Source: Bryobacterales bacterium (GTDB lineage: Bacteria; Acidobacteriota; Terriglobia; Bryobacterales; UBA6623). From it: a stretch of 35,362 nt of DNA. The notes under the pieces were generated by a model. The model was given only the letters and a program-made list of their open reading frames with translations, was not told the origin of the DNA and made no database searches. Of the stretch, positions 19,588 to 35,362 are shown one piece after another. Made by a program: the position numbers and the translations under genes. Positions within the stretch are counted from its first letter, which is position 1. Each line of letters begins with the position of its first letter. Location of the stretch: the NCBI GenBank assembly GCA_028819575.1, contig JAPPLB010000167.1, forward strand, positions 1 to 35,362, written 5' to 3'.

Positions 19588-19725
19588 ATTTCCTTCGGGA
19601 ATCTTGCAACGGGCTCGGCAACCCACTCCGGCAACAGCCGTCTCCGGTACAAGCAGTTCGCCCCCGCAAGATCCAGATTCCGGGTGTATTCATTCTACAC
19701 GGAGATTCCTCTCGTTCGCTTGCCA

Positions 19726-19903
19726 GCCTGCAATTCTCACCACCCGACGGTCGAAGCACGCCATATGACCGCCAGGACTTCGTTGCGCTTGCTTGCCGTG
19801 CTCAACGTACGGTTCAAGTACGCCTGGGGCGCCAAGCGGCTCGCGCCTCGTGCTGACGGCCCTCTCACGCACTTCTCCTCGCCACGTGGTGAGAAATGCA
19901 GGC
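19726..19903 (+). repeat. Dispersed TIR element, copy 3 (178 bp)
   Basis: Left terminus GCCTGCAATTCTCACCAC and right terminus GTGGTGAGAAATGCAGGC are inverted repeats with one mismatch. Right flank is TA (19904-19905); left flank is CA, probably a mutated TA. The core has the GCGCTTGCTTGCCGTGCTCAACG stretch and CGTAC/GTACG arms (one arm altered). The last C plus TA make the TAG stop of the neighbouring PQQ-type gene on the minus strand. It occupies over half of the gap between that gene and the sialidase-like gene. Confidence 0.9.
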
Positions 19904-21216
19904 TAGCGGGCGAGAGAGTAGCGAACGATCTCCTTGTCGTTGCGGGTGATCAGATGACGGTTCGCATAGGCGGGATGGGTCCAATTGATGGCGCCGAGTT
20001 CGCGCCGGCGGTTCACATATGACGTCGGCGTGATGATCTTCGTGCGATCAATCTCCTGGTAGCCATCCGGCGACAGCCTGGCGATGATCAGCTCTCCTCG
20101 ATCGTTCGAGATGAAATAGCGTTCGCCCTGGCGCACGATCTGTCCCGTCGACCAGCGAGCATTCTCCTTCGTCACTTCCATCGTTTCCCAGACCCGTTTA
20201 CCGGTTCGGGCATCCAAACAGCGGAACTGTCCGTAGCTACAAATACCGTAGATATAGTCCCCCTGGATGACCGGAGTGCTTACAAGAGAATGCAGTCCAT
20301 CGGTCTCGATTTCGCTCGTGGAGTTCCCCTTCCACATCAGGTCGGCGCGTGGCGCGCTCGGACTGAGCTTGAGCATCCGCGAACCTTCATAAAACGCCGT
20401 AACGAGCAACCGATTGCGGTCGAGAACCGGTGTCGCGACCGTCAGTCCATGGTGCACGTCAAAGGAGTGCTCCCAGTAGACTGCGCCGGTATCGGGATTC
20501 ATTGAAGTGATCGCGCGCGGGTGCCAGATGATGAGCTGTTTCGTGCCGCCTACCTCGATCAGAAACGGCGGATTGTAGCCCGGCTCCCAATTCGACGAAA
20601 GCGCGCGCCATATCTCTTTACCGGTCATCTTGTCAAAGGCGACGACCTTGGCGTCGGGCTCGCCGCCGACGAGGCAGATCAAGCGATTGCCGTCAACGAT
20701 CGGCGCTCCGGCAATGCCCCAAGTGGGCAAACTCGTGTTGTATTCCTCGATGAAATTCTTCTTCCAAAGCACGTCTCCGGTCTTCGCATTGAGACAATGC
20801 AGAACCCCTGTCGCGCCCACCGTATAGACGCGGTCCCCGTCAACGGTCGGCGTTGCGCGAGGACCGTTGGCATACGACATGCCGCTGTAGTCCGCCGCCC
20901 ATTCGTGTTTCCACAGCAAGTCGCCGCTATTCTCGTTGAGGCAAAGCGCCCGCTCCGTGCCGCGATTGCCCTGCTTGTTGACGATGTCAGTCACGTAGAC
21001 GCGACCGTCCGCGACGGCGGGACCGGTATAGCCGTTGCCGATTTCGCCGCGCCAACTCACCTCGAGCCCGCCCGCCGGAAACGTCTCGACAATTCCGGTT
21101 TCCATCCAGACACCCGTGCGGCCTTTGCCGCGCCATTCCGGCCAATCTTCGGCGGAAGCAAGCGGAACCAAGAGCACACTGATGACAAGCAATAGGTGGC
21201 GGGCAGCGGCAATCAT
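19903..21216 (-). CDS. Secreted PQQ-like beta-propeller protein
   Basis: 437 residues with a signal peptide (about 1-22, HLLLVISVLLVPLASA). The mature protein starts EDWPEWRGKGRTGVW, typical of the secreted PQQ-like/quinoprotein propellers found in Acidobacteria and Planctomycetes. Repeated blades carry the AxDGRVYxxD and ALNxxTGxxxWxx signatures: CLNENSGDLLWKHEW, CLNAKTGDVLWKKNF, AFDKMTGKEIWRAL, SMNPDTGAVYWEHSF and CLDARTGKRVWETM. There is no clear catalytic dehydrogenase motif, so it is more likely a scaffold or BamB-like binding protein than an enzyme. GGAG lies eight bases before the ATG. The stop codon TAG is formed by the terminus of a dispersed repeat. The upstream gap holds a cluster of palindromes. 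Confidence 0.87.
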   Translation of the reverse strand: MIAAARHLLLVISVLLVPLASAEDWPEWRGKGRTGVWMETGIVETFPAGGLEVSWRGEIGNGYTGPAVADGRVYVTDIVNKQGNRGTERALCLNENSGDLLWKHEWAADYSGMSYANGPRATPTVDGDRVYTVGATGVLHCLNAKTGDVLWKKNFIEEYNTSLPTWGIAGAPIVDGNRLICLVGGEPDAKVVAFDKMTGKEIWRALSSNWEPGYNPPFLIEVGGTKQLIIWHPRAITSMNPDTGAVYWEHSFDVHHGLTVATPVLDRNRLLVTAFYEGSRMLKLSPSAPRADLMWKGNSTSEIETDGLHSLVSTPVIQGDYIYGICSYGQFRCLDARTGKRVWETMEVTKENARWSTGQIVRQGERYFISNDRGELIIARLSPDGYQEIDRTKIITPTSYVNRRRELGAINWTHPAYANRHLITRNDKEIVRYSLAR

Positions 21217-21279
21217 GAGGAAACTCCGGGATCTGAGAAAAGAAACTCCATTGTACGAGCTTTCGGTTCTCCTTCATTA

Positions 21280-22223: not shown

Positions 22224-22243
22224 GTGAGGTGAGAAAGGTAGGC
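22224..22243 (+). repeat. Right-end fragment of the dispersed TIR element
   Basis: GTGAGGTGAGAAAGGTAGGC followed by TA at 22244-22245 matches the right terminus (AAAGGCAGGC variant, one change). The rest of the element is missing; the preceding bases hold only CGGAAGGCC. The final C plus TA read TAG on the minus strand and are the stop codon of the adjoining gene. Confidence 0.65.
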
Positions 22244-23427
22244 TAAGTCAGAGCCTCTATCAGCCGGTCAACGTCCGCGAGGTTGTTGAAGACCGATGGC
22301 GAGACCCTCATTTGCCCGGGCTTGCCGTTTCTCAAAGTGACAATCACGCCCGCTTTCTTCAGCCGCTGACGTGCTTTTTCCACATCAGGAACGAGGAACG
22401 TTGCAATGGGACTCTGGTTGCCTCGCGGGGTGATCGAGGGGTATCCGATGGCCGGCATTTCCCGTTGCAGCTTTTCGATCACCGGCCGCACATGGGTCCG
22501 GATGTTCTCGACCCCCAATTCGAGTATGTAGGCCAGCGCTTCGTTCTGACACACAAAACCCACGTGATTCGGCGTGCTGACCTGGTACTGCCGCGCATCC
22601 TTCGCGCCCGACCCGCTGCCGCCGAACTGCACCGGCTGCAAAGCCCCGCCGTGCAATTCTTCCGCCACGTACAGGTACCCGAACCGGCCCCCCATCAGCC
22701 ACTTGTAAGCCGAGCAAGCCAACAGGTCGACACCCATTTTCCGGACATCGATCGGCACCGCGCCGGCGGCCTGAATCACATCGATGAAGACGTATGCTCC
22801 ATGCCTATGCGCCAGATCGCTGATCGCCTCGATGTCGTGCAAGTAGCCGTTGACATTTGAAACCAGAGCCAGCGAAACCAGCTTTGTCTTGCCATCGATC
22901 GCTTTCTCCACATCAGCGAGGTCAATGGTGTAGTCCTTGTGCTTGACAATGCGAACGTCCAAGCCCCGCGCCTTTCGCGAGCGGTAGTTGAACAAGCTGC
23001 CACCGTAGTGCAAGTCGTTCGTGACGACATTGCCTCCGGATTCATGAATGCGCAACCCGTCCACCACGAGATTCTCCGCAATCTGCGTACTGGGAACGAA
23101 CGCGATCTCCGTTGGCTTCGCGCCGATCAGCCGCGCGAACATGCCCCGGACGTTCTCCTGCAGCTCCCTGTTCTCGTATTTTGCCCGACCCTCATCCGGA
23201 CCATTGGTCAGGTATCCGATGTATTCCTGTATTGCGGCGGATGAATGTTTCTCCAGGGGGTGCTCCAACGCGCAATTCAGGTAGGTCTCCCGATCGGCCC
23301 AGGGAAAGTCCGAACGGGCCGAAGCGACGGACCTACGCCGTGGGGCGGCACTAGCGACATTCGAGGCAAGGCCGGCGGCGCCAAAAGCCATGGCCGCTCC
23401 GATGAGCCGGCGACGATCGAGTTTCAT
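22243..23427 (-). CDS. Tat-exported PLP fold-type-I protein (aminotransferase class V-like), paralogue A
   Basis: 394 residues from the ATG preceded by AGGAGG (six bases); an upstream in-frame start at 23442 is disfavoured. LDRRRLIGAAMAFGAAGLASNVASA is a Tat signal, unusual for this mostly cytoplasmic fold. The class V aminotransferase/cysteine-desulfurase-like core has TNDLHYGGSLFNY, SLALVSNVNGYLHDIEAISDLAH, the cofactor-ring Asp in FIDVIQAAGA (D216) and the Schiff-base Lys in SAYKWLMGG (K242). It resembles isopenicillin-N epimerase-type relatives. The gene just upstream encodes a close paralogue. A PLP enzyme in the periplasm must be folded with its cofactor before Tat export. The stop codon is formed by a repeat fragment. 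Reaction unknown. Confidence 0.88.
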   Translation of the reverse strand: MKLDRRRLIGAAMAFGAAGLASNVASAAPRRRSVASARSDFPWADRETYLNCALEHPLEKHSSAAIQEYIGYLTNGPDEGRAKYENRELQENVRGMFARLIGAKPTEIAFVPSTQIAENLVVDGLRIHESGGNVVTNDLHYGGSLFNYRSRKARGLDVRIVKHKDYTIDLADVEKAIDGKTKLVSLALVSNVNGYLHDIEAISDLAHRHGAYVFIDVIQAAGAVPIDVRKMGVDLLACSAYKWLMGGRFGYLYVAEELHGGALQPVQFGGSGSGAKDARQYQVSTPNHVGFVCQNEALAYILELGVENIRTHVRPVIEKLQREMPAIGYPSITPRGNQSPIATFLVPDVEKARQRLKKAGVIVTLRNGKPGQMRVSPSVFNNLADVDRLIEALT

Positions 23428-23475
23428 GGATTCCTCCTGCACTTAGTTTGTTTTCTCTCTACCTGACGGCCGAAT

Positions 23476-24699
23476 CTAAGCAAGCGCGCCCAGCAGTTTG
23501 TCGACATCCTCATGATTGCTGAAGACAGAGGGCGAAAGCCGCATCTTGTTGCCGAAACGCATGGCTACGTGAACGCCCGCAGCCTGAAGCTTTTTCACGG
23601 TCGAAGACGGATCGCTTGCTTCGAAGACGACGATGGGGCTTTCATTTCCCTTCGGCGTGATCGATGGATAGCCGAGTTTGGGCAATTCTTCCTGCAAACG
23701 ATTCGTCAAGCCGCGCACATGCTTCCGTATGTTCGGCACACCGAGCTGAAGAATGTAGTTCAGGCTCTCTTGGGCACAGATCACCCCCTCGTAGGACGGA
23801 TAACTGACTTCGTAGCAACCGGGCCCAGGCCGCGGCCGGAAGGTGATTTCGTCAAGCGCGGCATCGGGCCGGTCGACCCACGGCTCGTAGTTGAACCGCA
23901 CGCCGCCGGAATGCTGCGTCGGCTTCACGATCTTTCGCTGGAGGTCCTCACGAACGTAGAGGAAGCCAAAACCCTTTACACCCATCAGCCACTTGTACGT
24001 CGAGCAGGCGGCGAAATCGATGCCCATGGCGCGTACATCGATCGGCACCGCGCCGGCTGCCTGAATCACATCGACGTACAGGTACGCGCCTTGCGAATGA
24101 GCGAGGTCGCTGATGAGCTTGACGTCGGAAAGATAGCCGTTCACGTTCGACACCAAAGTGATGGAAACGAGCTTCGTGCCGGCATCGATCGCCTTCCGCA
24201 TGTCGTCGATGTCGATGCGCCAGTCTCGATTCTTGACAACGCGCAGATCAAGCCCTTCCTGTTGCCGCATCTTGTAGTTGTAGAGGGCGGCGGTGTAGTG
24301 CAGGTCGTTCGTGACAACGTTGCCTTGTGACAGGACGTGCGCCATCCCGTTCAACAGGTTGCTCTCCGCCTCGATCGTGCTGCGGGCAAAGGCAATCTCC
24401 GAAGGCTTCGCATTGACGAGACGGGCAAACAGATTCTTCGCTTCGCCGCGGGGCGGCGCCCACGACGGCCACCACGGCGCGCCGACCTGATGGGCCACCC
24501 AATCGACGTAACGGTGCAGCGCCGCAGTGGAATGGACACTGAGCGGATGGGATGAGGCGCAGTCGAAATACGCGGCCGTTCGCGCTCTCGGGAAGTCGGC
24601 GCGCACCGCTTCAAAGTCAACTTCTTTCGCGGCGGCAGAGGCCGCGGGCGATGCCGCGCTCAGAGCCGCGGCCGCACTCAGGAATCGGCGTCGATTCAT
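23476..24699 (-). CDS. Tat-exported PLP fold-type-I protein (aminotransferase class V-like), paralogue B
   Basis: 407 residues. The start is set by GGAGGAATGCT before ATG and by the Tat signal MNRRRFLSAAAALSAASPAA; a 141-bp upstream extension reaches into the dispersed repeat and is not real. It aligns along its length with the next gene: NVVTNDLHY, LVSNVNGYL, VDVIQAAGAVPIDVRAMG (ring Asp D210) and CSTYKWLMG (Schiff-base Lys K236). It has an extra WWPSWAPPRG segment at about 76-85. The two genes are 48 bp apart, a tandem duplication that has diverged. The gap contains CCTGACGGCCGAAT, faintly like the repeat's left interior. Reaction unknown. Confidence 0.88.
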   Translation of the reverse strand: MNRRRFLSAAAALSAASPAASAAAKEVDFEAVRADFPRARTAAYFDCASSHPLSVHSTAALHRYVDWVAHQVGAPWWPSWAPPRGEAKNLFARLVNAKPSEIAFARSTIEAESNLLNGMAHVLSQGNVVTNDLHYTAALYNYKMRQQEGLDLRVVKNRDWRIDIDDMRKAIDAGTKLVSITLVSNVNGYLSDVKLISDLAHSQGAYLYVDVIQAAGAVPIDVRAMGIDFAACSTYKWLMGVKGFGFLYVREDLQRKIVKPTQHSGGVRFNYEPWVDRPDAALDEITFRPRPGPGCYEVSYPSYEGVICAQESLNYILQLGVPNIRKHVRGLTNRLQEELPKLGYPSITPKGNESPIVVFEASDPSSTVKKLQAAGVHVAMRFGNKMRLSPSVFSNHEDVDKLLGALA

Positions 24700-24832
24700 A
24701 GCATTCCTCCAAGAGACTTCGATGTCTTTACCAGGACGCAACCTTCGCCTCGCCCGGTCTCGCGGCAAGCTTGCCGCCGGTCGATACTCTTCGTGCGCCC
24801 TTTGAGACAACCGGCGCGGCGGGCATGGGCTA

Positions 24833-25011
24833 GCCTGCATTTCTCACCACATGACGGCCGAAGCACGCAATAGTACCATCAGGACTTCGTTGCGCTTGCT
24901 TGCCGTGCTCAACGTACTGTTCAAGTACGCCTGCGCGCGCCAAGCAGCTCGCGCCTCGTCCTGACGGCCCTCTCACCCACTTCGCCTCGCCACGTGGCGA
25001 GAAATGCAGGC
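24833..25011 (+). repeat. Dispersed TIR element, copy 5 (179 bp, complete)
   Basis: Complete copy: left terminus GCCTGCATTTCTCACCAC, right terminus GTGGCGAGAAATGCAGGC, TA on both sides (24831-24832 and 25012-25013). The core has CGCTTGCTTGCCGTGCTC and CGTAC/GTACG arms, and the perfect palindrome CTCGCCACGTGGCGAG at 24986-25001. The right end makes the TAG stop of the isochorismatase-like gene. Outward from the left end, the repeat contains ATGCAGGCTAGC, which creates a false upstream start for the neighbouring gene. Confidence 0.95.
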
Positions 25012-25904
25012 TAGCCGGAAGACACCGCGTTTGGCTTGGACTGGCCGGCCTTGCGTAGCAAGTCCTCGCTCAAAACCGTCGGGCACCAGTACTGCTCGAT
25101 ATGCTCGATCACCATTTCCGTACCGCGCTCATGGGATACGTAAGGCGCATCGCGCGGATCGTACATGGCGTCGGTAAGGTCGCGAACGAGCACGACTTTG
25201 CGGCCCAGCCGCTTCATCTGACGGATGCCGAAGGGCCGGCCCAGCACGCACATGTTCGTGTGAACGCCCGTCATGACAATGTTGCGAATCCCGAGCTGTT
25301 CACAGTAGTTGTAGATTTCCTGTCCGTTGTCGCTGATCCCGTCGTAGGGGCCGATCTCGATATCGGGGTGCTGACGGCTATACATGCGTACGCGCGGCCG
25401 GAGCACTTCATCGTCGCAAGCCTCGTTCTGGTCGTCGATGGGCAACGCCGCCTCCATTTCCCGGTCGAGATAGCACCACCGAGCGATCGGCACCGGCGGC
25501 GTGACGTGAGGCGCGTCGATCATCCGTTGGCGCTGTGGCGCGTCCTTGTAGAAATCCATCGTATTGCTGGGTGAATGGATGATCGCAACGCCATTGCCGC
25601 GTGCTGCCTCGAGCACCTGGTTGAACCTCGGAATCATCACTTCCATGCGCCGCACCGCCGAAACGCAGTAGAGGTCATCCCACATATCACAGACGATCAA
25701 CGCGGTTTCTGACGCCTTCCAGTCAAGGCTCCGCTCGAAGGGTTGGACCTTCCCACCGGATGCGGGCATCTCGGCCCGGCTGCGCGCCCGCAGGGGTAGG
25801 CGACCGCTTTTCACGGGGCGGTTGGGAAGCGCGGTCAGGGGCGCGAGCGTGGCCCCGGCGAGACCGCCGGAAAACAGAGCAAGGGCGGAACGGCGAGTGA
25901 TCAT
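25011..25904 (-). CDS. Tat-exported isochorismatase-like cysteine hydrolase
   Basis: 297 residues with a twin-arginine signal MITRRSALALFSGGLAGATL and AGGAGG upstream. The isochorismatase-like fold has the catalytic Asp in LIVCDMWDDLYC (D73), a His in IHSPSNTMDFY, and the nucleophile Cys in IVMTGVHTNMCVLGRPFG (C219). The catalytic Lys usual in this family is not obvious; R178 in MYSRQHP may lie near that place. Members hydrolyse amides or vinyl ethers (nicotinamidase, N-carbamoylsarcosine amidase, isochorismatase). Export suggests an extracytoplasmic amide substrate. It lies upstream of the two PLP-like genes but is separated from them by a repeat copy. Confidence 0.87.
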   Translation of the reverse strand: MITRRSALALFSGGLAGATLAPLTALPNRPVKSGRLPLRARSRAEMPASGGKVQPFERSLDWKASETALIVCDMWDDLYCVSAVRRMEVMIPRFNQVLEAARGNGVAIIHSPSNTMDFYKDAPQRQRMIDAPHVTPPVPIARWCYLDREMEAALPIDDQNEACDDEVLRPRVRMYSRQHPDIEIGPYDGISDNGQEIYNYCEQLGIRNIVMTGVHTNMCVLGRPFGIRQMKRLGRKVVLVRDLTDAMYDPRDAPYVSHERGTEMVIEHIEQYWCPTVLSEDLLRKAGQSKPNAVSSG

Positions 25905-26510
25905 GGGGGAGCCTCCTATTCTGGCTGTATTCTATCCCCGACGACAGACCGACACAAGCCGACAACTGGGCGTGTCCACGCGATATAGAAAGTACGTTTT
26001 TTGTGCAATCGATAACGTTCTCCTTTCTCAGCATGGGTTCATGTTGCGTTCGCCGCAACGGAACGAGTCCAGAGAGCAACGGGAACAGCGACGAACGGCG
26101 CTTGTCGTGAGGGCGACCGAGAACGGCTGACGATGCGCTGACACTGGTTTATGGGCAATATTTGTATCGGGAAATGGTGGGTAGGGAAGCCGTGACTCGG
26201 CGGCGGGAGCGACATTCCGGACGGCGCTTTTTTGTGTTGCGACCCTTGCGCGCTTACCGTGAACCGAACGACCCCAAAACCGTGATTCGTGTTTCGTGAC
26301 TCGTGTCTCGTGAAAAACGTTAAAGTCCGTGTTGCTGGGATGGGCGGCTCGTGGCTCGTAGGGGTTCAGTCCCTCGATCTGAAGGGGGACGTTCTCCTTG
26401 ACTGACTGGGGAACTTCTCCCACTGCGCCGACAGCCAACAACCGTGTAATGGCAGCCGCGCACGGAACGCCGCAGGCCGGCTGCCCGGCCCGCCTTTCGA
26501 TTCCATAGCT
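25905..26510. other. 606-bp spacer with CGTG-rich repeat
   Basis: No convincing gene. At 26281-26314 a run of TCGTG units (CGTGATTCGTGTTTCGTGAC, then TCGTGTCTCGTG) is followed by AAAAAC and a GTGTTGCTGGG stretch; a related segment lies inside the repeat at 31131. Open frames on the minus strand here (to 26441) derive from that low-complexity tract. Confidence 0.45.
26475..26490 (-). terminator. GC hairpin after the small membrane-protein gene
   Basis: GGCCGG-CTGC-CCGGCC is a perfect 6-bp stem with a 4-base loop, 20 bp beyond the stop of the minus-strand gene at 26511. No T-run follows, so a rho-independent terminator is uncertain. Confidence 0.35.
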
Positions 26511-31010: not shown

Positions 31011-31130
31011 GCCACTTGTTCATCAGATGGGAGCGATGCAGACAACCCGCTGTTTCCTTACGGTTGCCGTGGAGAGGAGCGCCGTTGCCCAGCCGGCAGT
31101 GTCTGAAAGCAATTGTTGGGAGAACCAGTA

Positions 31131-31498
31131 GCCTGCCTTTCTGACCACCCGACGGCCGAAGAACACGAAAAAAGGCCGTGATTCGTGTCTCGTGCCTCGT
31201 GATTTGTGAAAAACCTTTCCAGGCCATGTTGCGGGTCTTTTTCCTCCGCCCGGCCCGCGCCTCGTACTGACGGCCCTCTCACGCACTTCACCTCGCCACG
31301 TGGCTAGCCTGCATTTCTCACCACCCGACGGCCGAAGCACGCGATACGACCGCCAGGACTTCGTTGCGCTTGCTTGCCGTGCTCAACGTACTGTTCAAGT
31401 ACGCCTGCGCGCGCCAAGCGGCTCGCGCCTCGTCCTGACAGCCCTCTCACCCACTTCGCCTCGCCGCGTGGTGAGAAATGCAGGCTAGAAAGGCAGGC
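31131..31498 (+). repeat. Dispersed TIR element, outer copy, interrupted (about 187 bp without insert)
   Basis: Left terminus GCCTGCCTTTCTGACCAC with TA at 31129-31130; the element runs to 31304, is interrupted by TA plus a full inner copy, and resumes at 31488-31498 (GAAAGGCAGGC), then TA at 31499-31500. Its middle lacks the usual core and instead has a CGTG-rich tract (31176-31206) and TTTTTCCTCCGCCCGG, as in copy 1. Without the insert and one TA, the right arm CACGTGGCTAGAAAGGCAGG equals the copy 1 arm except for one base. The terminal C plus TA supply the stop of the Gfo/Idh/MocA gene. Confidence 0.85.
31307..31485 (+). repeat. Dispersed TIR element, inner copy (179 bp, complete)
   Basis: Termini GCCTGCATTTCTCACCAC and GTGGTGAGAAATGCAGGC are perfect inverted repeats. 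TA flanks both sides (31305-31306, 31486-31487). Core sequence matches copies 3 and 5. It sits inside the right arm of the outer copy, so it moved after the outer copy was in place. Confidence 0.95.
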
Positions 31499-32658
31499 TA
31501 TATGGAAACTCCGAGCTCGTCCCACGTAACCATGCGCCGCTGGTAAATCGACTCGCGGCCCATTATGCCGGTCAGAGCGGCGATGGCAGCGGTTTCGATA
31601 TCGGCGACCGGCTTGCGGCCTTGACGTATGGCCCTCAGGAAGTCGTTGTGGGCGGCCTCGGTGAGGTCGATGTCTTCGGCCGCATGTTCGACGGGCTCGG
31701 CATCCCCGTGCATGTCGTAATAGGTCCACGAACCGTAGTTCAGCTCAATCGCACCCTTCTCACCGTACACAACGAACCAAATGCCGTTCGGCAACTTCTC
31801 GAGCTTGCGAGGGTGCAAGTAGAGCTGGCTGTAGTCAAGGTGCATGTCATTCTGATAGATGTACTCGACACTGAAACCATCCATCATCACCGTGCCGGAC
31901 GGCATCGGCTCGGGCAGATATCTCTTGCCATGTCCATAAGAGCTTTCCGGGCGGCTGCCGGCAAGCCAGTTGCACACGTCGAGGTTGTGAACCGCGTTCT
32001 CGACGATGAGATCACCCGAAAGTTTGACGTCGTTGTACCACCCCGGGAAACGCCGCCGCTGTCCGCCGCCCCCTGCGCGCCGCGTACCGGGCTTCGAGGG
32101 CGTGCTGTGGCGTTGGGCCTTGATGACGAGCGGCTTGCCGATCAATCCGGCTTGATGGATCTGCGCCACGACTTCCTGCATGTGAGGCGCGTTGCGGGAT
32201 TGCTGTCCAATCTGAAACACCGCCTTCGACTTGCGCGCCGCGTCCAGCACCAGCTTGACCTGGTCCGCCGAAATGGCCAGCGGCTTCTCGCAGAACACAT
32301 GCTTGCCCGCTTCCAGAGCGGCCGCGGACATCTCCGCGTGCAGATAGCACGGAGTCGAGATCAATACCGCATCGATGCCGCTCTGACCAAGCAACTCCTT
32401 GTAGTCGCCAAAAGAGCGCGGGTTGTCAGCCCGCGCCGTGCTTTGCGCAGCGTCGCGCGCGGAGGGGTCGACATCGCAGACCGCCTTGATTGCGACATCG
32501 GAGCGCTTGACGAAGCGCCGCAGATGCGCATTGCCTCGTTTGCCCACTCCGATCATCCCGAAGCGCAAAGGTTCTTCCTGCGCAGTCGCTGATGACGCCA
32601 TGGCTGTTGTAGCTACCGTTTGCAGAAAGCTGCGCCGCAACACTTTACTTTTATTCAT
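31498..32658 (-). CDS. Tat-exported Gfo/Idh/MocA family oxidoreductase
   Basis: 386 residues; start set by TTGGAGACTGCT before ATG. The Tat signal is SKVLRRSFLQTVATTAMASSATA. The Rossmann part has LRFGMIGVGKRGNAHLRRF, ISTPCYLHAEMS and FCEKPLAISADQ (EKP motif); the catalytic domain has GDLIVENAVHNLDVCNWL. Tat export lets the protein leave the cytoplasm folded with NAD(P) bound. Glycoside-oxidising members with this layout form 3-keto sugars. Secreted DUF1080 genes lie on both sides, supporting a shared glycoside pathway. The next gene, on the other strand, starts 136 bp away. The stop codon is made by the terminus of the nested repeats. Confidence 0.92.
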   Translation of the reverse strand: MNKSKVLRRSFLQTVATTAMASSATAQEEPLRFGMIGVGKRGNAHLRRFVKRSDVAIKAVCDVDPSARDAAQSTARADNPRSFGDYKELLGQSGIDAVLISTPCYLHAEMSAAALEAGKHVFCEKPLAISADQVKLVLDAARKSKAVFQIGQQSRNAPHMQEVVAQIHQAGLIGKPLVIKAQRHSTPSKPGTRRAGGGGQRRRFPGWYNDVKLSGDLIVENAVHNLDVCNWLAGSRPESSYGHGKRYLPEPMPSGTVMMDGFSVEYIYQNDMHLDYSQLYLHPRKLEKLPNGIWFVVYGEKGAIELNYGSWTYYDMHGDAEPVEHAAEDIDLTEAAHNDFLRAIRQGRKPVADIETAAIAALTGIMGRESIYQRRMVTWDELGVSI

Positions 32659-32794: not shown

Positions 32795-33430
32795 ATGACA
32801 GCAACTCAGCTCAAACCTGCTTGTATCGTCCTGTTCTTCGTCGTCGGATTCCCTTTGCCGACCTTGGGACAGTCGGAAGGCTTTGTTTCATTGTCTCCTC
32901 AATCCCACCTCAGTGAGCATTGGACCGTGGAAGGTTCCGCACCCGATACCTGGTCCGTCAAAGACGGCGTGATCGTTTGCAGCGGTCGCCCCAACGGGTT
33001 TCTCCGCAGCAAGAAGTCCTACCGAGATTTCATCTTTCGGGCCGAATGGCGTTTCCAAAAAGAGGGTTGGACGGAGCAGCCGCCCACTTACCCGAATGCG
33101 GGTTATTTCGTTCATGCCGGAGAGGTGGAGCGCGGGTGGCCTCGGTCGCTCGAGATCCAGGGCCACTACGGCGAAGCCGGCAGCCTGTTCGGAGTGCGGG
33201 GCGGCAGGGTGAGCGGGGCTCGGCGGGGACCGATTCCGGAGAACCGCAAGCCCTTCGGCGAGTGGGAGAGTGTCGAGATCCAGTCGCTCAAAGGCATCAT
33301 CACCGTGGCCCTGAACGGCGGGAAGATGAACGAAGGCCAGGACATCTACCCAACCGAGGGAAACATCTGTCTGCAGGCAGAGGGTTGGCCGGTCTTCTAC
33401 CGCAACTTGAAAATCAAGGAACTCGACTGA
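32795..33430 (+). CDS. Secreted DUF1080-type protein 2
   Basis: 211 residues from the chosen ATG; an in-frame TTG nine codons upstream exists. Signal peptide about 1-26 (KPACIVLFFVVGFPLPTLGQ). The domain shares the DUF1080 plan: WTVEGSAPDTWSVKDGVIVCSGRPNGFLRSKKSYRDFIFRAEWRF, NAGYFVHAGEVERGWPRSLEIQ, WESVEIQSLKGIITVALNG and LQAEGWPVFYRNLKIKEL. It differs strongly from the first DUF1080 protein, as expected for different substrates. It is divergent from the Tat-exported oxidoreductase and probably shares its regulatory region (32659-32794). Confidence 0.9.
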   Translation: MTATQLKPACIVLFFVVGFPLPTLGQSEGFVSLSPQSHLSEHWTVEGSAPDTWSVKDGVIVCSGRPNGFLRSKKSYRDFIFRAEWRFQKEGWTEQPPTYPNAGYFVHAGEVERGWPRSLEIQGHYGEAGSLFGVRGGRVSGARRGPIPENRKPFGEWESVEIQSLKGIITVALNGGKMNEGQDIYPTEGNICLQAEGWPVFYRNLKIKELD

Positions 33431-35128: not shown

Positions 35129-35292
35129 TCTTTGCAACTCCTTCCGCGCCCGTAAAACCCTGCTCGAGCGCCCCCCAGAGTGTAGGCCTATCACAGACCG
35201 CATCGCAATGTGAGCTCTTCGGAAGCCTTGGGGCGGAGCGGTCCGCCGGCAGGGTCCACCGAGATCGGACCTTCGACCCCTGGGCGCCACTA

Positions 35293-35362
35293 GTCTGCAT
35301 TTCTCACCACCCGACGGTCGAAACACACGATACGACCGCCAGGACTTCGTTGCGCTTGCTTG
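35293..35362 (+). repeat. Dispersed TIR element, copy 7 (left part, cut by window end)
   Basis: Left terminus GTCTGCATTTCTCACCAC (one change from GCCTGC) with TA at 35291-35292, followed by the left arm and the start of the core. It ends at GCGCTTGCTTG, while the window begins TGCTTGCCGTG, so the ends join or overlap within the same repeat region. Confidence 0.9.

Follow-up and report, generated by a model that had tools for sequence, protein, structure and literature searches.

A recently mobile, IS1380-linked family of MITEs in the order Bryobacterales

Correia elements, ERIC, Chunjie and QMITE2 are short, non-coding repeats with inverted termini, a duplicated target, a hairpin transcript and a high copy number, ERIC reaching up to 711 copies in Photorhabdus luminescens (PMC10969869). 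The review of prokaryotic MITEs from which this is taken makes no mention of IS1380 (PMC10969869). A further comparison is offered by the Tn3-derived TIMEs, non-autonomous miniatures named for the family whose ends they share, which have Tn3-type ends, a target duplication of 5–6 bp and usually a single copy (PMC4133298). The IS1380 family itself (NF033539; ISEcp1, ISPme1, IS1247) has termini starting with CC and a short target duplication, which has been reported as 5 bp for IS1247 (PMC3281130). Its transposases can move DNA beyond the intact IS, as in the TMos of ISPme1 and ISEcp1 (PMC9330008). An IS1380-linked MITE was not found in the open literature searched.

The repeat family described here was identified in a window of 35,362 bp (the whole stretch of DNA analysed), which is the entire contig C72 of a 5.37-Mb Bryobacterales draft genome of 200 contigs. 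In its general features it resembles Correia, ERIC, Chunjie and QMITE2, but it differs from them in having IS1380-type termini and a CTAG target, and in having an interior which does not come from the presumed partner and whose hairpin is conserved between genera. It is named, as TIMEs are, for the family with which it shares its ends, although those ends are not of Tn3 type. The duplication is of 4 bp and not of 5 bp as in IS1247, and what has been multiplied here is a very small independent element, whereas TMos consist of a full IS copy with adjacent genes. We regard it as a MITE family that is new, linked to IS1380 and recently mobile. Recognition of its ends in trans by a resident IS1380 transposase, with insertion at CTAG/YTAR, is given a probability of about 0.88.

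Among the copies within the window, the one at 24834–25010 (177 bp) is flanked by CTAG on both the left (24830–24833) and the right (25011–25014), the right duplication holding the TAG stop codon of a gene on the minus strand (25011–25904). Another full-length copy, of 176 bp (19727–19902), lies between CCAG (19723–19726) and CTAG (19903–19906), and the latter contains the stop codon of the minus-strand gene 19903–21216. A young copy of 177 bp (31308–31484), which folds as one hairpin and has CTAG at 31304–31307 and 31485–31488, is nested in an older, diverged copy. The left part of this older copy (31132–31303) continues past the insertion to its right end at 31489–31497, with GTAG (31128–31131) and CTAT (31498–31501) as flanks. 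Two copies are cut by the contig, one by its start (1–139, with CTAA at 140–143) and one by its end (35294–35362, with CTAG at 35290–35293), and a solitary, diverged right terminus was located at 22226–22242, where CTAA (22243–22246) overlaps the stop codon of an ORF on the minus strand (22243–23442). A 42-bp direct repeat of the CGTGATTCGTGTTTCGTG type was also observed at 26280–26321 and 31176–31217, one of its copies lying within the old element.

The three full-length copies at 19727–19902, 24834–25010 and 31308–31484 were named in the original prediction, and their CGTAC..GTACG centre and near-perfect inverted termini were seen as described; their supposedly equal length was not, the copies being of 176, 177 and 177 bp. 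Nor could the predicted 178–179 bp with TA flanks be upheld, as the element begins with CC, ends with GG and is flanked by a 4-bp duplication, CTAG. Where eight copies or fragments had been claimed, seven were counted in the window. The very high density is nonetheless real. The 19-bp terminus, with up to 3 mismatches allowed, has 10 matches in the window against a chance expectation of 0.03.

Across the whole genome, a 20-bp terminus pattern gave 758 matches, and the reversed control pattern gave 0. In ~1.2 Mb of this genome's sequence 91 paired elements were counted (~75 paired copies per Mb), which extrapolates to ~400 copies making up ~1.3% of the genome. The closely compared genomes are all drafts, with contigs broken at the repeat. 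Most elements measure 176–177 bp from CC to GG, with some variants of ~200 bp, and no transposase gene lies inside them. Being shorter than ~300 bp, multicopy and without coding capacity, with a duplicated target and IS-like ends, the family is non-autonomous and MITE-like, as had been proposed. The window starts and ends inside element copies (positions 1 and 35362), as do other contigs of the genome, which indicates that the repeat limits assembly. The only named genomes in which the core sequence turned up belong to Bryobacterales (Acidobacteriota), namely APA_bin_29, Bryobacteraceae MAG23 and Ca. Solibacter RYN_21. Elements of the last two do not differ from those of two genomes in the window's order, G042 and G246, which makes Bryobacterales the probable order of the window. 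Seven more genera of the order also have elements of 175–177 bp containing that core sequence, the identity being 57–74% in the comparisons made.

The target duplication was found to comprise CTAG, CTAA, TTAG, TTAA or TTAT, loosely YTAR. Identical 4-mers to the left of CC and to the right of GG were present in 30 of 108 distinct copies, compared with a mean of 15.7 and a maximum of 26 in 3000 shuffles. Covariation is seen in both outer columns of the duplication (76 vs. 58.5; 73 vs. 53.7; none of 3000 shuffles reached these values), the inner pair is almost invariant TA and gives no signal, and the columns outside these 4 bp do not match; the duplication is therefore 4 bp long. Since CTAG is palindromic and resembles TA accompanied by a fixed G and C, the first reading of the flanks as TA is explained.

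Recent mobility is suggested by comparison with a related species of the same genus (G002), which is ~93% identical in this region. Copies 19727–19902 and 24834–25010 are absent from G002, which has a single intact CTAG at each place, and only an internally deleted remnant is found there at the place of the older copy 31132–31303. G002 in turn carries one copy near 21275 that is absent from the window; as the window's four bases at this point differ from CTAG, an empty site is supported and the exact target is not. Copy positions thus differ between related genomes, in agreement with the original view of the repeat as mobile, and both target site duplication and insertion polymorphism, as looked for in a MITE, were found. 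A second MITE-like family of ~185–190 bp, with ends ACAGCCCGTGTCAAAAGGC...GCTTTCAACACGGGCTGT, was seen in G002 (L221 and L222) at sites homologous to 23471–23476 and 32805–32813 of the window, which has no copy at either place.

The mobilising enzyme had been expected to lie outside the window, and IS1380 elements with matching ends were indeed found elsewhere in the genome. Two intact IS1380-family copies of 1724 and 1723 bp, ~97–97.5% alike, have 492-aa open frames whose products match NF033539 at 385 bits (cut-off 180). One terminus reads CCTGCATTTCTCACCAG or CCCGCATTTCTCACCAG and the opposite one CCCGGATATCTCACCAG; the exact 4-bp duplications are CTAG/CTAG and CTAA/CTAA. The element ends, CCTGCATTTCTCACCA(C), match one of these copies in 16 of 16 terminal bases; the 17th is C in the element and G in the IS. 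Element and IS1380 have in common these terminal bases, the size of the duplication and the target preference, and differ in that the element lacks a transposase gene and its 177-bp interior is unrelated to the IS. One of the genome's IS1380 copies is itself inserted within an element copy. Derivation of the element from IS1380 by internal deletion was considered and rejected, there being zero similarity beyond the 16 terminal bases.

When the terminus pattern was run over 257 genomes of the order, 64 matched (control 0). Facing termini 1.64–1.76 kb apart enclose one gene of ~455 codons, an IS1380 transposase, and IS1380 elements of 1.64–1.75 kb with termini of this kind are present in six genomes of the order besides the window's own. 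IS1380 elements with similar ends thus occur in other genera, their transposases matching NF033539 at ~390 bits (cut-off 180) and PF13701, with duplications of CTAG, CTAG and TTAG, and the elements of other genera have termini similar to the variant listed for the respective genome. Among the non-element ends of the window's own genome, termini identical to those of the element enclosed no transposase gene, and a search of four genomes for such termini around a non-element interior returned only one solitary end, in that same genome. This perfect terminus (L067:967; G000 C76:968) is followed by an unrelated interior and lacks a partner end in its vicinity. From the shared ends and target we infer that an IS1380 transposase moves the element. 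Most likely, the transposase of the 1724-bp IS recognises the element ends in trans, and the element would insert at CTAG/YTAR with duplication of those 4 bp. In another genome (G206; L243, L244 and L245) a different hairpin of ~175–205 bp was observed with nearly the same termini (CCTGCATTTCTCACA), which indicates that ends of one kind are combined with unrelated interiors.

Many copies are situated at gene ends. Using gene calls from a simple codon-usage script, which makes such counts approximate, a stop codon was placed inside the duplication for 31 of 91 copies, and 40 of the 91 are at no gene end. Among ORFs of at least 150 codons which stop in the duplication or in the element, the stop lies precisely in the duplication for 41 of 64, where frame alone would predict one third (p ~5e-7). 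Of the CTAG sites outside coding sequence, 23% are at stop codons, and the excess over this background, once corrected for truncated genes, is borderline (p 0.05), so that most of it may be due to the availability of targets and to survival; strong targeting of stop codons beyond target availability was not retained for this reason. In G002, the genes at both window sites end at the same CTAG without an element. The C-terminus of the PQQ-repeat protein (19903–21216) is the same in G002 and the window, and the isochorismatase-domain protein (25011–25904) differs by one extra codon in this comparison. At both sites the stop codon was thus already there when the element inserted, and was regenerated by the insertion. 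An insertion at a stop codon would thereby restore the stop and spare the gene, the target itself containing TAG or TAA, and this would account for the many copies at gene ends.

Other mobilisers were weighed against IS1380. It is very improbable that the family is an IS630/Tc1-mariner MITE duplicating only 2 bp, TA, even though TA stands on both sides of most copies, IS630-type genes and fragments are present in the genome and TA duplications are common among described bacterial MITEs. The two flanks covary at the bases beyond TA, which rules out a duplication of TA only, and the termini, which start with CC, agree with those of IS1380 elements. The IS630-type partner originally suggested for this repeat was not found, since the PF13358 loci of six genomes, when scanned for the element termini, gave no enclosing pair, and those with findable ends have other termini; the presumed partner is instead of the IS1380 family. 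Virtually no weight can be given to a repeat that resembles REP/REPIN sequences and is mobilised by a Y1 transposase (RAYT). Such a repeat would agree with the high copy number, the palindromic shape and the extragenic placement, but Y1 enzymes are not known to leave a target duplication, whereas a clear one of 4 bp is present here, together with long terminal inverted repeats shared with a DDE-type insertion sequence.

The explanation of the interior is a separate question from that of IS1380 mobilisation. The whole element forms a single hairpin when folded (z −7.5), and in an alignment of nine sequences 92% of cells pair, with double changes at 24 of 54 pairs (shuffled mean 13.6), counts which are inflated by relatedness and refer to a structure derived from the same nine sequences; a shifted register abolishes the signal. 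It is possible, if somewhat doubtful, that the hairpin is kept perfect without selection through quasi-palindrome self-correction by template switching, as long near-palindromes are known to self-correct and the same double changes would result. This process does not predict the constant length of 175–177 bp, nor the conservation of the centre and the GAGCGCAACGAAGT block across genera at 57–74% overall identity, and bulges and internal loops are preserved as well. A structured gene-end element, serving as a terminator, a protector of mRNA 3' ends or a small RNA, which is retained for host benefit and spreads by transposition, is improbable. The compensatory changes, the centre conserved across genera and the above counts of stop codons in the duplication would all suit such a role; the share of non-coding CTAG sites already at stops, the marginal corrected excess, the copies at no gene end and the turnover of positions between close species argue against it, and a search of the window against Rfam matched no family. 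In the mechanism built around IS1380, the interior is a separate hairpin of fixed length, found order-wide and not derived from the IS, with its pairing maintained through compensatory changes. Only tentatively, and as a rather unlikely account when taken as a whole, can it be proposed that the interior is a selected nucleic-acid structure with its own long lineage, which has persisted in the genera of Bryobacterales with its termini tracking the resident IS1380 variant and which settles on stop codons as a ready-made structured 3' end of the gene.

The IS1380 family includes ISEcp1, a mobiliser of resistance genes, and the significance of the present elements lies in tying a MITE to this family. 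A target containing TAG or TAA would provide a simple route to tolerating hundreds of insertions, and the family partly explains the fragmented assemblies of these genomes, whose contigs end within the repeat. As an intact candidate transposase is present in one genome together with hundreds of substrates, many of them recent, the sequence rules of trans-mobilisation should be directly readable and testable in this organism.
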